Assembly (NCBI GenBank): GCA_029210125.1
Contig: JARGPR010000006.1
Location: 62,001 to 126,000, forward strand
Length of the DNA: 64,000 nt
Origin: Pseudomonadales bacterium
GTDB taxonomy: Bacteria; Pseudomonadota; Gammaproteobacteria; Pseudomonadales; JAHRWD01
Direction of reading: 5' to 3'
The notes under the pieces were generated by a model, which was not told the origin of the DNA, did no database searches, and saw nothing but the letters and a program-made list of their open reading frames with translations. Each line of letters opens with the position of its first letter. The first letter of the stretch is position 1. The position numbers and the translations under genes were made by a program. Shown one piece after another: positions 10,438 through 16,143 of the stretch.

Positions 10438-11403
10438 TCAGTTGGCTTTTAATTTTGCAGTTCCACGAACACCAAATACCACAAGGTCAGAGTCGTTAAT
10501 AGCGATAACCGAAGTAAGGTTTTCAAATCCACTGTAGGGGACTCGTTGGAAGTTTGTATCACCTTTGTTTTTGCGTAGTATGGTACCACCGGCGCCTAAC
10601 AGAATGGTGTCGCCAGAAACGGTATAGGTTCCACCTAGTAGATTGGTAGTAACCCCGGTGTCCAGTTGAGTCCAGTTATCACCGAGATCGTTGGAGACAA
10701 ATGCGTGGCCCCGAAGTCCGTAGACAATGATTTGGTGGCCATTTTCAATAGGTCGGGTAATCGCACCAAAAAACGATCCCACATACGGGGACTCAAGCTG
10801 TGTCCAGGTTTTTCCCTGGTCTGAAGAGCGCACCAATGTACCCGCTTCGCCTGCGATGAGAACATGCTCACCAACTCGAAGGATCGAGTTGAAGTGCCAG
10901 TCAAGTTCGCCGATCATAAAATCCTGCCATGTCTTTCCACCGTCGTGGGTGCGCATAATTAGCCCATAGGCGCCGGTTACGAGTCCATTTTTTTTGTCGA
11001 AGAACACTACATCCAGGAGCGGTTTTTCAAGGTCAGGCGCTTCAAATAACAGGTTCCAGTTTTCGCCGCCATCATGGGTGCCCAGGATGACACTGTCATG
11101 ACCCACCGCCCAGCCATTTTGGTCGTCGACGAAATCGATGGCGGTAAGCAACATTTGTGTAGGCGAGTTGGCTTGTACCCACGAGTTGCCCTGATCATCG
11201 CTATAGAGGATATGCCCTCGGCCGCCAACGGTGAATATGCGATCACCAGCAGTTGCCGAGTTCACCAGCAGGGATTTATGGGATTTAACAGCAATGGTTG
11301 AGGGTACCTGAATCGAATCTGCGTAGCCCAAATTGGTGTAAAGGTAAAAAAACAGAGTTGAAACTATCGCCAGACTACGAAACGGTTTTCCGCGACTGCT
11401 CAT
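10438..11403 (-). CDS. YCF48-like beta-propeller protein, exported
   Basis: The 321-residue protein begins with a probable signal peptide (basic start, hydrophobic core, possible cleavage near GYADS at residue 30). It then carries at least five BNR/Asp-box type turns: DDQGNSW, THDGGENW, THDGGKTW, SSDQGKTW and SNDLGDNW, typical of the photosystem II stability/YCF48 family, giving a periplasmic propeller. In non-photosynthetic proteobacteria such proteins accompany RND exporters and are thought to be assembly or scaffold factors; that role is inferred. It lies 60 bp before the RND gene. Confidence 0.85.
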   Translation of the reverse strand: MSSRGKPFRSLAIVSTLFFYLYTNLGYADSIQVPSTIAVKSHKSLLVNSATAGDRIFTVGGRGHILYSDDQGNSWVQANSPTQMLLTAIDFVDDQNGWAVGHDSVILGTHDGGENWNLLFEAPDLEKPLLDVVFFDKKNGLVTGAYGLIMRTHDGGKTWQDFMIGELDWHFNSILRVGEHVLIAGEAGTLVRSSDQGKTWTQLESPYVGSFFGAITRPIENGHQIIVYGLRGHAFVSNDLGDNWTQLDTGVTTNLLGGTYTVSGDTILLGAGGTILRKNKGDTNFQRVPYSGFENLTSVIAINDSDLVVFGVRGTAKLKAN

Positions 11404-11473
11404 TTAAACGGTCCTTAATATTTTTTTGTCGGGGATCCTGGTCTCAAAAAGAATGATTCCGGGATTCAGGAGA

Positions 11474-11506
11474 CCCAGCAACCAGGTGGAGTACCTGATT
11501 GCTGGG
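11474..11506 (-). other. Strong intergenic stem-loop between the DUF1329 and YCF48 genes
   Basis: CCCAGCAA and CAGGT (11474-11487) pair with ACCTG and TTGCTGGG (11493-11506), leaving one C-A mismatch and a five-base loop. No U-tract follows on the minus strand. Its position inside the operon suggests an RNA-stabilising or partial-termination element that would set the DUF1302/DUF1329 level above that of the transporter. Confidence 0.6.
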
Positions 11507-11516
11507 GTAATCAATG

Positions 11517-12890
11517 TTATCGAATACCAGATGCTCGAAGAGCAGCTGGCGTGTAGCGGGAGGGATCAGATCTAAATGAATGATCGTCAGGTGTATCTTC
11601 GTTATCGAGCCCAACAGCAAGGTAACGACCGGATTGTAGGTCGTAGTGAATCTCGGCGGTGTTATTGTTCACCAAAATATCGGTGCTGTTATATAGATGG
11701 CCCTCAGACATTCTCCACAACTGATCGCGTTTGTCGTAATGATCCATCACGGCAATGCTCCAGGTGTCTTCGTCCATAAAGAAGACACGTTTTTTGTAGA
11801 TATGGCTGGTACCCTCTCTCAGATCACCTTCGACATGCCATACACGATGCAATTCATAGCGCGCATAATCCTGGTTGATATGACCTTTTTGAATGATCTG
11901 ATCAACGGTAATGTCACCATTGTGCAACAAATGAGAGTTGTAAGGGATATACATCTCTTTACGGCCAACCAGGGTCCAGGAGTAGCGGTCGATATTGCCG
12001 TTATACATACCCAACTGATCACTTGTCGCGAGGCCATCACCGCCAGTTTTGGGGTTGTCATACTGAACCTGCGGTGCCCGTCTTACTCGACGTTGACCAG
12101 GGTTGTATGACCAGATGCGACGCTTATGCTCGTCATTATGCATTACACCCAAAATCAGAATTACGCTACCTGCTTTTTTGGCTGGCGACCTAACGGTTTG
12201 AAGAAAGTAAAAAACGTCGTTCTCTCCGTCAAAGCTTTCAGTTGTATTTCCTTCCTTGGACCAACCCGATAGCAACTCCTCGGTAATTTTTGAGGTTTGG
12301 TACCTTCCGGAGCCGGTTACAACGGTAGTATTTGACCAACGGTGAACACCCTCGCGAGCCACTTTGGTAGCATGGTTGAGAATGGCTTCTGCGCCATTGT
12401 TAGGAATGGGGAAGGCCCAGGCAATTTTGGCACCTTTGAAATCGTTTCCGCTTTCGGTTAGTTCCGCAGTGCTGGCATTTTCAATAGCCGCTTTATAGAC
12501 ATACGGATGGTTAGAGGCACTACGTCGGGATGGATAAATATTCATCTTGTAGTCCGCATATAGCGCAAACATTTCCTGCTGGCCGGGGCTGAGCTTGTCC
12601 GCGTATTGCTTATAGTTAGCGGAGGTGATGGTGAACAGTGGTTTGTCATCCGGGTATGGATTGGGTAGCCATTCACCTTTTGCTAGCTCTACCTGTGGGA
12701 GCCCTCCAGTCCATGCTGGTATGGTACCCTCGGCATTTCCAGCGCGGATCGCGCCGGAGGGTGTTAATGGAGTACCCTCTATACCTAGTTTTGCAGCGTC
12801 TTCAGGTGAGACCTTGGCCTGTACCCCGAAGGATGATAGTGCCGCAACAAGCGCGCTTGAAACAGCTAATATTTTTGCTTTATTTTTCAT
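11517..12890 (-). CDS. DUF1329 domain protein, exported
   Basis: The 457-residue protein starts with a clear signal peptide ending near FGVQAKV at about residue 26. The rest matches the DUF1329 family as I recall it: an EDAAKLG..GTPLTPSGA opening, aromatic-rich YNPGQRRVRRAP, and W..DEDTWSI near the end. Many members are described as related to LolA/LolB-type lipoprotein-sorting folds, so a periplasmic carrier of lipid-like molecules is a reasonable but unproven idea. It follows the DUF1302 gene by 15 bp and has a GGGA site before the ATG. In pseudomonads DUF1302 and DUF1329 genes are usually neighbours. Confidence 0.88.
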   Translation of the reverse strand: MKNKAKILAVSSALVAALSSFGVQAKVSPEDAAKLGIEGTPLTPSGAIRAGNAEGTIPAWTGGLPQVELAKGEWLPNPYPDDKPLFTITSANYKQYADKLSPGQQEMFALYADYKMNIYPSRRSASNHPYVYKAAIENASTAELTESGNDFKGAKIAWAFPIPNNGAEAILNHATKVAREGVHRWSNTTVVTGSGRYQTSKITEELLSGWSKEGNTTESFDGENDVFYFLQTVRSPAKKAGSVILILGVMHNDEHKRRIWSYNPGQRRVRRAPQVQYDNPKTGGDGLATSDQLGMYNGNIDRYSWTLVGRKEMYIPYNSHLLHNGDITVDQIIQKGHINQDYARYELHRVWHVEGDLREGTSHIYKKRVFFMDEDTWSIAVMDHYDKRDQLWRMSEGHLYNSTDILVNNNTAEIHYDLQSGRYLAVGLDNEDTPDDHSFRSDPSRYTPAALRASGIR

Positions 12891-12905
12891 GGTTATTGTC
12901 CCTTT

Positions 12906-14525
12906 CTAGAAGCTGTATTTGAAAGTAAGTGCGAAGAAGTCTCGGTCATAGGCCGAGTTGGCATCCTGGTTTCCCCAGTTCGCAGTGTATCCCAGGTCAA
13001 AGGTAGTGCTGGTCAGGTAGGTGGCGGTTACGCCCACTGTTACACTCTTCCGATCCTGAAGGAACGTACCATTTGGCGAGCTTCCCTTGGCATCATGCTT
13101 AAAGGTGACCGCTGGCTCCAGGGTCATATCAAAGAGCGCGTCAGAATACTCAACCTTAACCAGTGCGACGTATCCCCAGGAAACCGGGTCCATGCTTGCG
13201 AACGCGGCTGCATCTAAAGGGCCGCTACTTGGAAGATCGGTAAATACCACACCGGGTTCAACAAGAATCGTCATTTTATCCCCACCGAACCAGTTATTGG
13301 ATCCACCCTGGTAGGTAATGGTTGTCTGAACTTGTGTCACGTTAGCTCTGCTGTAGTTAACTACTGTGCCCAGCCCTAGGCCGAAAACGCCGAAGGTATT
13401 TGCTCCAAGGCTCAGCGGCGTATCAGGACGGTAGGAAACTTCACCTGCTAATGAAATCCCAAGATCGCCAGGTAGATCTACGTTGAAACTAGCGCCCCAC
13501 ACATCGATATCTTCAGGGTAGATTATCTGGAACGAGCCTGTAGAGAAGTCCGGAGTTCCTGCAGGGTACGGAGGTGATGCAAGAAGCACACTACCTTGGG
13601 TTGCCTGGAAGAAAGGCGTATGGCTAGATTGGCGCATATAATAGAAGGCTATTTCCATATACTCCCAATCTTCCATTAGTTTGCGAAAAGCAAAACCATA
13701 TTCGCCACCATCGTCAGGCTCGATATCCGGGCCTCTAGGCACAACACCAGCTGGCCCTAGTGCAGAACTTATAGTTATAGATGTTGATGAACCTTCACCA
13801 ACAGCGTCGGTTGTCGAAAAAAACGTGCCGACTGGATCGATAATGGTTTCGGTCCATTTAGCTACATAATAAGCCTCAATAGAAAATTCACCTCCAAAAT
13901 CGAGGGATGCCCATATCATAGGTAAAGGCAGTATGAGCTCTTTAGTTTCAATGGCGGCGCCTCGCGCCTTGGTGGCATCGATCGGATTGATGCTGTTCAG
14001 GCTATTTCCAATATAGGTACTCTCACCCCAGCTCAGCACCTGGTTGCCAGCACGAACCGATAACATTTTTTCGCCAAAGGCAAAGTTACCGTATATAAAT
14101 GCATCAAGCAGCTGAAATTTATTGCCGATTTCATCTTGGCTCTTTGAAGTGATATTAAATACGCTTGTGTCCAGCCCCTGGATTTTTGCGTCGTAAATAT
14201 AGTTACCACGAACAAAAACGCCTTTTGAGTTTTTGCTGAACCCTGCTTCAACCGTCAGCTTAAAGGGTGTTGAAACCAGTTCACCACTCTGCTCAAAATT
14301 CTTGTTGCTGGCGTTTAGAGGTTTGCTGGTATCAGGATCTTCTGTTCGCCAAATTCCACCGATGGAAACAGTGGTGTCAACAAATCCTGACATGCTGGGG
14401 TCGTCAAATTGAAGTTGTATCGCCTGGGAGCTTAAGGGCAGCGTTAAAAGAGCCCCTGTCCCGATTACCTTTGCGAGGGTGGGCGTTTTCCCACTCTGCT
14501 TATATCTGCTTGCGAGTTTAATCAC
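12906..14525 (-). CDS. DUF1302 family protein, probable outer-membrane beta-barrel
   Basis: This 539-residue protein has an N-terminal signal sequence (cleavage near SSQAIQL) and an amphipathic, aromatic- and glycine-rich composition ending in FALTFKYSF, with the C-terminal phenylalanine typical of outer-membrane barrels. Features such as AGNQVLSWGESTYIGNSLN are typical of DUF1302. It starts at GTG behind AGGAG and is first in the operon DUF1302-DUF1329-YCF48-RND. A role as outer-membrane channel for a hydrophobic substrate is inferred from the barrel character and the neighbours. The 230 bp upstream should contain the operon promoter, divergent from the chemoreceptor-like gene. Confidence 0.87.
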   Translation of the reverse strand: MIKLASRYKQSGKTPTLAKVIGTGALLTLPLSSQAIQLQFDDPSMSGFVDTTVSIGGIWRTEDPDTSKPLNASNKNFEQSGELVSTPFKLTVEAGFSKNSKGVFVRGNYIYDAKIQGLDTSVFNITSKSQDEIGNKFQLLDAFIYGNFAFGEKMLSVRAGNQVLSWGESTYIGNSLNSINPIDATKARGAAIETKELILPLPMIWASLDFGGEFSIEAYYVAKWTETIIDPVGTFFSTTDAVGEGSSTSITISSALGPAGVVPRGPDIEPDDGGEYGFAFRKLMEDWEYMEIAFYYMRQSSHTPFFQATQGSVLLASPPYPAGTPDFSTGSFQIIYPEDIDVWGASFNVDLPGDLGISLAGEVSYRPDTPLSLGANTFGVFGLGLGTVVNYSRANVTQVQTTITYQGGSNNWFGGDKMTILVEPGVVFTDLPSSGPLDAAAFASMDPVSWGYVALVKVEYSDALFDMTLEPAVTFKHDAKGSSPNGTFLQDRKSVTVGVTATYLTSTTFDLGYTANWGNQDANSAYDRDFFALTFKYSF

Positions 14526-14755: not shown

Positions 14756-15412
14756 GTGTCTACACCGCTTGCTGGATCATTAAGTTTCGATATTTTTTCA
14801 TCGCAGTTCGTGGTTGGAAATTGTTGTCAGTCGACCATCACTAGTTCGTCTATTTCTGCCGAACTAGGTAAGGCGTGCGGCAAGGCAAAAAAATTATCAC
14901 TCGCAGCCAAAAACGCTCGTGCAATGGTACTGCGAGTGGGGGATAGAGCGATGGGACTTAAAGTGGTAACTGATTATTTTTCAGAGCTTGCAGATAATAC
15001 TATCGCTTTGGCGGATAACATTAATAATGTCGCCAATAATATCTCGGAAGTTACTGTATCGAGATGGAGAACTGAAACCCTAATAGAACAGTTACGGAAG
15101 TCGAAAAAATTAGATGAAAGTAACTCTGCATTTGATTCAGATATTTTGAAAAAAATTTGCGAAAATGTTGGCTTGAACCTGAAGCAGGATGAGGCGACGG
15201 CTGATCAGCTAATTCGTGATCTGGAAGTTGAGTTGGAGGAAATTCAACGGCAAATGAGAGCTGCTGATGTAGTCTGTGTTACGTTTTTGCTTGAAGCAAC
15301 TAAAACGGGTGAGTTCCAGGAAATTCTTAAATCAATGGCAAACAACATTAAACAATTAGCGGATGACATTAAAGCGCATGTTACTCGATCGTACACCCTA
15401 CTGGAGATCTGA
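14756..15412 (+). CDS. Soluble, degenerate methyl-accepting chemotaxis-like protein
   Basis: The 218-residue protein has no signal peptide or membrane segment. Residues 45-97 resemble the chemoreceptor hairpin tip: NARAMVLRVGDRAMGLKVVT stands where receptors have NAA.EAARAGE..RGFAVVA, followed by a L(A/S)xxT helix. The conserved glutamates of the tip are mostly lost. Residues 165-210 look like a second, weaker copy (LLEATKTGEF then MANNIKQLADDIK). GTG start at 14756 with AAGGGA upstream. The stop is two bases from the start of an ODP-like metallo-beta-lactamase-fold gene, so they are translated as a pair. Since ODP in Treponema denticola signals oxygen through a chemoreceptor, I infer an oxygen or redox signalling module; direct CheA/CheW contact is doubtful. 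Confidence 0.6.
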   Translation: MSTPLAGSLSFDIFSSQFVVGNCCQSTITSSSISAELGKACGKAKKLSLAAKNARAMVLRVGDRAMGLKVVTDYFSELADNTIALADNINNVANNISEVTVSRWRTETLIEQLRKSKKLDESNSAFDSDILKKICENVGLNLKQDEATADQLIRDLEVELEEIQRQMRAADVVCVTFLLEATKTGEFQEILKSMANNIKQLADDIKAHVTRSYTLLEI

Positions 15413-15414
15413 TT

Positions 15415-16143
15415 TTGCAAACTCACAATATATATAAAGGTAAACACCAGTGGGTGGTTTTTGGCCGTGATGAAGGAAAACCGGATGCTATTATCGATAC
15501 CAATCAATGCATGGTTATCAATGGAAACCGTTCGCTGATTATTGACCCTGGTGGAACTGAACTATTTGCTCCAATGTTGTCCGCGGTGCTTCAATATGCT
15601 GATATAGAGGAGATTACAGACCTTTTTGCGTCTCATCAGGACCCTGATATTATTTCTTCCCTGGGTTTGTGGGATCAGGTTCTTCCCCACGCGACCCTGC
15701 ATGCTTCCTGGATTTGGGAGGGGTTTATCCGGCATTTTGGTATGGGAAATATTCCTTATCAGGCAATTCCTGATTCTGGTGGTATTTTAAGTTTGGGGGA
15801 TCTTGATTTGCAGTTGGTACCCGCGCATTTTTTACATTCATCCGGGAATTTTCACATCTACGATCCTGTTGCTAAAATCCTTTTTTCAGGGGATGTTGGT
15901 GCATCTTTAGAGCAATCAGGTTCGCCAATGTATGTAGAGGATTTTGAAAAACAGACAGAATTTATGGAAGCTTTTCATCAGCGCTGGATGCCTTCAAATG
16001 AAGCGAAGCTAGATTGGATTAACCGGGTTCGAACACTGGATATTGAATTAATGGTTCCGCAACATGGGCGAATTTTTAGACGGGAAGATGTTCCAAATTT
16101 TTTGGATTGGTTCGATGAGTTGAAAGTAGGGATTACAGGGTAA
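15415..16143 (+). CDS. Metallo-beta-lactamase-fold protein, ODP-type di-iron oxygen-binding protein
   Basis: This 242-residue cytoplasmic protein has the fold and metal ligands of flavodiiron-like MBL proteins: H74-x-D76-x-D78 in SHQDPDI, a histidine in the 138-147 cluster, D160 in FSGDVGA and H217 in VPQHGR. Flavodiiron enzymes have HxExDH at the first site; the HQDPD form is what I recall for ODP oxygen sensors. There is no flavodoxin domain, so it is unlikely to be a reductase. TTG start behind GGAG, two bases after the chemoreceptor-like gene. Binding of oxygen or Fe and signalling through the neighbour is inferred. A generic hydrolase is the alternative. Confidence 0.72.
   Translation: MQTHNIYKGKHQWVVFGRDEGKPDAIIDTNQCMVINGNRSLIIDPGGTELFAPMLSAVLQYADIEEITDLFASHQDPDIISSLGLWDQVLPHATLHASWIWEGFIRHFGMGNIPYQAIPDSGGILSLGDLDLQLVPAHFLHSSGNFHIYDPVAKILFSGDVGASLEQSGSPMYVEDFEKQTEFMEAFHQRWMPSNEAKLDWINRVRTLDIELMVPQHGRIFRREDVPNFLDWFDELKVGITG

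Follow-up and report, generated by a model that had tools for sequence, protein, structure and literature searches.

The window, a stretch of 64,000 nucleotides from contig JARGPR010000006.1 of a Pseudomonadales bacterium, contains two genes lying 2 bases apart on the forward strand, an arrangement that had been described in the original prediction and that was confirmed by inspection of the open reading frames (Table 1). The first gene encodes a soluble protein resembling the tip of a chemoreceptor (the partner), and the second encodes a protein of the ODP family. Both genes have a lower G+C content (0.41 and 0.42, respectively) than the window (0.47).

Table 1. Features of the partner-ODP locus, in coordinates of the window
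Feature	Position	Strand	Basis
218-aa soluble chemoreceptor-tip-like protein, ODP partner	14756..15412	+	ORF, GTG start; family profile searched against the PDB
ODP-family di-iron-type protein, metallo-beta-lactamase fold	15415..16143	+	ORF, TTG start, 242 aa; PF19583
Partner copy 1, segment compared with receptor tips	14864..15046	+	Residues 37-97, tip glycine G62
Partner copy 2, segment compared with receptor tips	15233..15406	+	Residues 160-217, tip glycine G185
HQDPD motif (H74, D76, D78), putative di-iron site of ODP	15634..15648	+	Invariant in alignment A2; present in 6qrq and 6qnm
FNR/ANR-like box CTGATTTCGATCAA	14608..14621		1 mismatch to the FNR/ANR consensus; weak lead

The product of the downstream gene can be assigned to the ODP family with near certainty. 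It matched PF19583 over model positions 1-194 of 194 (E 6.2e-71; 238.7 bits against a curated cut-off of 27.2), and its nearest solved relatives, 6qrq (E 4.3e-63) and 6qnm (E 1.1e-52), are oxygen-binding di-iron proteins. Inspection of the printed alignments revealed that the HQDPD, histidine, SGD and PQHG stretches are common to the window protein, 6qrq and 6qnm. In alignment A2, which holds nine paired ODPs, residues H74, D76, D78, H138, D160 and H217 were invariant; the positions at which H74, D76, D78, D160 and H217 had originally been reported were correct. On the basis of the flavodiiron/ODP pattern, we take these six residues to be the putative di-iron ligands, and the window ODP probably binds iron and oxygen.

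The HxDxD/H/D/H pattern of the window ODP is presumably that of the flavodiiron proteins, with aspartate at the middle ligand position where, as we assume, flavodiiron proteins have glutamate. Like these proteins, ODP has a metallo-beta-lactamase-type domain, to which correspond a weak NCBIfam match to flavorubredoxin (E 1.3e-4) and weak PDB matches to diflavin proteins (E 0.07). Unlike them, it has no flavodoxin domain, and a Pfam search of the 242 residues revealed no flavin domain.

The partner alone gave no Pfam or NCBIfam match above cut-off. Its score against PF00015 (MCPsignal) was 12.5 bits, below the curated cut-off of 34.6, and the protein was therefore filed as MCP-like and not as an MCP. 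Single-sequence searches yielded weak, scattered matches, among them a PPR design (E 1.9e-4) that was rejected, since the score summed many weak repeats and the match was absent from the profile search. At family level, PF00015 was matched at E ≤ 0.1 by 35 of 49 members (best E 2.4e-7), and a profile of 49 members searched against the PDB placed chemoreceptors on top, with 3g6b (E 2.4e-9) followed by 4jpb (E 6.5e-9). Alignment A3 comprises 49 of 52 representatives, three (L030, L040 and L046) having been excluded for their long, uncertain starts. The chemoreceptor-tip-like stretch pointed out originally, NARAMVLRVGDRAMGLKVVT, was located at residues 53-72 of the partner. In agreement with the same prediction no membrane helix is evident, the highest 19-residue Kyte-Doolittle mean being 0.98, and the chain is barely longer than the tip region itself.

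A weaker second copy of the tip had also been claimed. Both copies were therefore compared with each other and with 19 receptor tips, a non-redundant set drawn from the fetched loci. Upon ungapped sliding, the best score coincided in each comparison with the exact tip-to-tip register: 47.4 for copy 1 against the receptor tips (next best 8.5), 23.2 for copy 2 against the receptor tips (next best 15.1), and 26.8 for copy 1 against copy 2 (next best -3.0). When alignment columns were shuffled with preservation of the heptad pattern, the observed score was reached by 0 of 2000 shuffles for copy 1 against the receptor tips and again by 0 of 2000 for copy 2 against copy 1. Copy 2 against the receptor tips was the weakest of the three comparisons, its score being reached by 50 or 23 of 2000 shuffles according to the background used. 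Alignment with hhalign gave E values of 1.5e-9 for copy 1 and 1.2e-6 for copy 2 against receptor tips, the latter alignment opening a gap of seven residues behind the tip, and of 1.6e-5 for one copy against the other. For four control segments of the partner, scores did not exceed 0.4 on the scale on which the two copies scored 38.7 and 16.6. Given that the registers, the shuffle controls and hhalign agree, the second copy can be regarded as a real, diverged tandem repeat, and these comparisons make it very probable that the partner is a tandem duplicated receptor tip.

Structure prediction, proposed originally as a check, was run for the partner and returned a helical-hairpin bundle as expected. 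The AlphaFold model of the window partner was helical and confident (mean pLDDT 89.9), as was that of the family member from Methylotuvimicrobium buryatense (mean pLDDT 88.9), in which helices span residues 3-50, 53-104, 111-164 and 168-204. For both models, the top VIA-align matches were single-chain four-helix bundles, a common fold (170 residues, 2.2 Å, Z 17.6; 175 residues, 2.0 Å, Z 16.7). Foldseek returned mostly designed or unrelated bundles for both models, none of them matching at E ≤ 0.001. The structure libraries thus yielded generic bundles among which receptors were not prominent, an outcome that neither supports nor excludes homology; helical-hairpin bundles are common, and the link to receptors rests on sequence. 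Two features of the models fit a pair of hairpin tips less well: the helix string of the window-partner model runs unbroken through tip 1, and the predicted turn precedes the tip glycine in copy 2 but follows it in copy 1, as judged for copy 1 by aligning it with the second model. A chain running up-down-up-down would bring both tips to one end, as in one receptor dimer, and a partner folded in this way would imitate such a dimer as a single-chain pseudo-dimer.

Residue conservation was assessed with 86 of the 88 loci that had matches, which left 83 distinct rows; L039, in which a contig end cuts the gene, and L069, in which the gene is split in two frames, were left out, and L019 and L002 denote one locus. 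It had been noted originally that few of the conserved tip glutamates remain. This is true of copy 1, in which M57 and D63 occupy the positions of Tsr E385 and E391, but not of copy 2, in which glutamates are present at both (E180 and E186). Across the set, copy 1 retained the equivalents of N381 and G395 in 83/83 sequences and that of R388 in 70/83, and a glutamate equivalent to E385 was found in 0/83. In copy 2, the E385 equivalent was present in 74/83 and the E391 equivalent in 71/83, with arginine or lysine at position 388 in 15/83. In the window partner, the E385 and R388 equivalents do not stand within one tip, the R388 equivalent (R60) being kept by copy 1 and the E385 equivalent (E180) by copy 2. 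A basic residue in copy 1 together with the glutamate in copy 2 was observed in 71 of the 83 sequences, neither in 9, the glutamate only in 3, and the arginine only in 0; since 12 of the 71 are also basic in copy 2, 59 are clean R/E splits. The association between arginine in copy 1 and glutamate in copy 2 (p 6.7e-10) was counted over sequences rather than events, and a single clade may account for it. That the tip was duplicated in tandem and that the two copies lost complementary residues goes beyond what was originally predicted.

In an archaeal transducer, partnering dimers are described as joined by E355-R358′ locks, the homologs of E385-R388′ in Tsr (PMC8144572), and one account of the ordinary receptor dimer places one subunit at the trimer axis and leaves the other able to contact CheA and CheW (PMC4692393). 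A division of the two residues between the copies is what would be expected if the copies occupied fixed places.

Pairing with ODP was the rule wherever the family was found. Among 56 genomes around the host, nine strong members of the partner family were detected, the window's included, and an ODP follows each. Species genomes were also scanned with the ODP alignment, and the best 80 of 361 relatives were kept (the named loci), one of which (L058) is labelled Acidobacteria. A family gene lies directly upstream of ODP in 79 of these best 80; the sole exception (L032) has ∼120 bases of upstream sequence, and the 79 include the cut gene of L039, the split gene of L069 and a locus with a 394-base gap (L064). 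Methylotuvimicrobium buryatense 5G and Methylomonas sp. LW13 are among the carriers of the pair. Because the named loci were chosen by likeness to paired ODPs, a sample of the order provides the fairer count. Here, 22 clear family loci were found in 21/293 genomes, all with an ODP match alongside (22/22) and separated from ordinary receptors by a wide gap (E 2e-29 versus 3e-12); at most the best 10 candidates per genome were scored, and more divergent members may be missed. In 398 genomes of the phylum, five had a match at E ≤ 1e-14: the genome of the window itself and four others belonging to its class, and the four further loci are all paired with ODP (4/4). The spacing between the two genes is operon-like, with 17 of 87 values negative, 36 at 0-30 bases, 32 at 31-100 and 2 longer; an outlier of -3540 (L040) arose from a second ODP-like frame. 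The pair therefore recurs in many Gammaproteobacteria, including methanotrophs, and the neighbourhood survey and co-occurrence test suggested at the outset produced no refutation.

The order sample contained 64 ODP matches above 220 bits, 26 of them short (575-585 bases) and 38 longer (597-606 bases). Twenty-two of the short matches adjoin the family and two adjoin more divergent proteins; for the short ODPs of genomes G047 and G053, no family match was present in the stretch fetched. The two divergent proteins, at L117 2511-3185 (E 4.2e-6 against the family profile) and L118 1411-2040 (E 6.8e-13), are still tip-like, and the family is therefore probably wider than counted. At the two loci inspected among the 38 of the longer ODP type (L121 and L122), there was no family match or receptor-like partner.

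In part of the family, the genomic surroundings of the pair point to chemotaxis. The host genome contains 12 MCPsignal loci and 13 CheW-domain matches and, away from the pair, a cluster that was read as cheY-cheA-cheW-receptor-cheR-cheD-cheB. Upstream of the pair, the named loci include cheB-like (20/80), cheD-like (19/80), cheR-like (11/80) and cheW-like (6/80) genes; at other named loci, a receptor and a STAS gene intervene. Methanotroph names are carried by 18 of the 20 cheB loci, the other two being L033 and L051 (labelled Methylophaga). No cheB was found within the available sequence, which is short in some cases, at 60/80 named loci.

A CheA domain was present in all 50 named genomes searched (the loci number 80 in all), and a CheW domain in 9/9 genomes. 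If contig C1 of genomes G328 and G342 underlies L074 and L098, the pair there would be preceded by a CheA domain at a distance of ∼10.7 and 8.7 kb, respectively. Co-occurrence with CheA in the order genomes was uninformative at the default threshold (19/21 with the pair versus 214/272 without, p 0.27). A cut at a best E ≤ 7e-20 gave 19/21 versus 49/272 (p 1.4e-11), a result that was hand-counted with a cut chosen post hoc among related genomes and is not relied on. Two of the 21 order genomes with the pair, G010 and G254, gave no CheA-domain match, and both have CheW-domain genes. G010 was considered as a carrier that evolved without CheA, and this was rejected: at L125 8652-12453, fliF and the start of fliG abut parA with no Ns, the stretch normally holding cheA is missing, and a deletion or an assembly fault is likelier.

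At L074 3624-5257, genes read as STAS-domain-like and receiver/ATPase-like lie between cheB and the pair, and a hybrid-kinase gene is also nearby. STAS-like matches were found in 14/80 named loci and receiver/ATPase-like matches likewise in 14/80. The occurrence of such genes beside the pair in several methanotrophs suggests an added, partner-switch-like output.

The original prediction had envisaged a compact signalling module whose receptor part may have lost the binding of CheA and CheW. The pair itself stands, in that ODP lies beside a chemoreceptor-like soluble protein and such pairs recur. The missing tip residues would fit a loss of binding, against which stand the cheB genes upstream of the pair at 20/80 named loci, the CheA domain in all 50 named genomes searched and in 19/21 order genomes with the pair, and the modulation of CheA reported for the Treponema denticola counterpart (PMC7666581). 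Because of the che-operon loci, lost coupling to CheA was moved from the main reading to a rival, and from sequence and analogy a modified CheA/CheW coupling seems likelier than loss.

Several known systems bear comparison. We take 3g6b and 3g67 to be the soluble receptor Tm14 of Thermotoga maritima, the gene of which is presumably linked to an ODP gene. In the PDB search with the family profile, Tm14 ranks first (E 2.4e-9 to 2e-8), and its chains of 213 aa are similar in length to the partner. Unlike in the partner, the tip of Tm14 lies near mid-chain (family residues 17-138 correspond to 79-202 of 3g6b), giving one long hairpin and not two short ones. Tm14 is described as cytosolic and without a ligand-binding domain (PMC12871147), features that the partner shares, and 4jpb is reported to contain part of this receptor in complex with CheA and CheW (PMC6746300).

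Two receptor signalling units per chain are also a feature of single-chain chemoreceptors: an engineered single-chain Tsr (Tsr∼Tsr) is described as signalling, and the same source mentions soluble single-chain receptor domains that occur naturally, for example in Rhodospirillum centenum (PMC4692393). Unlike those receptors, the partner has units that are little more than tips, diverged from each other and tied to ODP; by description, this sets it apart. The T. denticola receptor TDE2496, according to PMC7666581, is without transmembrane and sensing modules and yet modulates CheA. As with T. denticola ODP (TDE2498) and this receptor, the ODP gene of the window is coupled to a soluble MCP homolog. 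TDE2496 is described as an MCP homolog, unlike the partner, which has ∼200 aa, a score below the MCPsignal cut-off and two diverged tips, and which is likewise set apart by description. An ODP with a soluble receptor is thus already known, and natural single-chain receptors are mentioned in print. In the open-access literature searched, we found no description of the partner family and no natural single-chain receptor tied to an ODP; relatives may be discussed in the first paper on ODP of T. denticola and in the cited single-chain works. By analogy, the pair may be read as the counterpart, in Gammaproteobacteria, of the ODP-receptor module of Treponema.

Taken together, the pair is probably an oxygen/iron input module for chemotaxis, and from the che neighbours and by analogy with T. 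denticola we consider it fairly likely to signal to CheA. In the mechanism that we propose, ODP would bind iron and oxygen and its state would be passed to the 218-aa partner. The latter, with two hairpin tips per chain, would imitate one receptor dimer stripped of its ligand-binding, HAMP and membrane parts, dock among ordinary receptors and alter the activity of CheA. We infer both the contact between ODP and the partner and the control of CheA by the partner. Weighing against this mechanism are the 60/80 named loci at which no cheB was found within the available sequence, the two order genomes that gave no CheA-domain match, a CheA frequency that at the default threshold is not higher with the pair than without it, the loss of the E385 equivalent from copy 1 and, in most sequences, of a basic residue at position 388 from copy 2, the lack of a Foldseek match at E ≤ 0.001, and the unbroken helix and unequal turns of the models. 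A bolder and quite tentative extension is that the partner may be a naturally differentiated single-chain receptor whose sequences are fixed for the two places in a trimer, with the E385-R388′ lock split between them. A lock split in this way would not permit the usual symmetric locking between partner molecules, and the partner would therefore enter mixed trimers as a single guest beside full-length receptors. The full-length receptors would then supply the missing lock residue, and the oxygen signal of ODP would be injected into the shared array.

Three other explanations were weighed against this mechanism. The partner could derive from a receptor tip and no longer contact CheA, serving as a scaffold or relay from ODP to another output such as the STAS, receiver/ATPase or hybrid-kinase proteins. 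The loss of conserved tip residues, the PF00015 score of the window partner, which lies below the cut-off, and the neighbours just named (all three at L074, with STAS-like and receiver/ATPase-like matches at 14/80 loci each) are in keeping with such a role; however, cheR, cheD and cheB occur within the same operons, the N381 and G395 equivalents of copy 1 are retained in 83/83 sequences, and the T. denticola counterpart is reported to modulate CheA (PMC7666581). We consider this explanation possible but unlikely. It is improbable that ODP is mainly an enzyme reducing oxygen, peroxide or NO, or an iron protein, with the partner as a non-signalling subunit or stabiliser. The metallo-beta-lactamase domain is indeed common to ODP and the flavodiiron enzymes, as reflected in the flavorubredoxin (E 1.3e-4) and diflavin (E 0.07) matches, but the 242-aa ODP has no flavin domain, the profile of the partner family resembles receptor tips, and che operons are found at 20/80 loci.

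An unrelated four-helix bundle whose likeness to tips arose by coiled-coil convergence is a very improbable account of the partner. Against the facts that four-helix bundles are common, that the structural matches were mostly designed or unrelated bundles and that the score of copy 2 against receptor tips was reached by 23-50 of 2000 shuffles stand three comparisons that all score best exactly tip to tip (in two of them 0/2000 shuffles reach the observed score), the low scores of the control segments (≤ 0.4 versus 38.7 and 16.6 for the copies) and the receptors that head the PDB profile matches.

An input module for chemotaxis of this kind would be of use beyond the locus. Receptor dimers are symmetric yet work asymmetrically, and the roles of single subunits are hard to assign; the artificial single-chain Tsr of Mowery et al. 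is presented as a tool built for assigning them (PMC4692393). A natural protein of ∼200 residues that carries two diverged tips would offer a small, ready-made system for the same question. In addition, oxygen sensing through ODP, which is described in a spirochaete, would extend to a Gammaproteobacteria-wide module that includes cultured methanotrophs, organisms that depend on oxygen and methane being found together.

An FNR/ANR-like box, CTGATTTCGATCAA, lies 135 bases upstream of the pair and has one mismatch to the FNR/ANR consensus; it could also serve a divergent gene that starts at 14525. Boxes with no more than one mismatch were found in 8/84 upstream regions, where 1.9% (Markov) or 3.1% (random stretches) would be expected, a weak enrichment (p 2e-4 or 5e-3 according to background). 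The box is not conserved at the same-genus locus L019, where the best candidate has three mismatches, and perfect boxes lie upstream of three relatives (L005, L009 and L096). Farther upstream, at window positions 10438-14525, three consecutive genes on the reverse strand resemble an envelope cluster and are presumably of the DUF1302/DUF1329/BNR-repeat kind.
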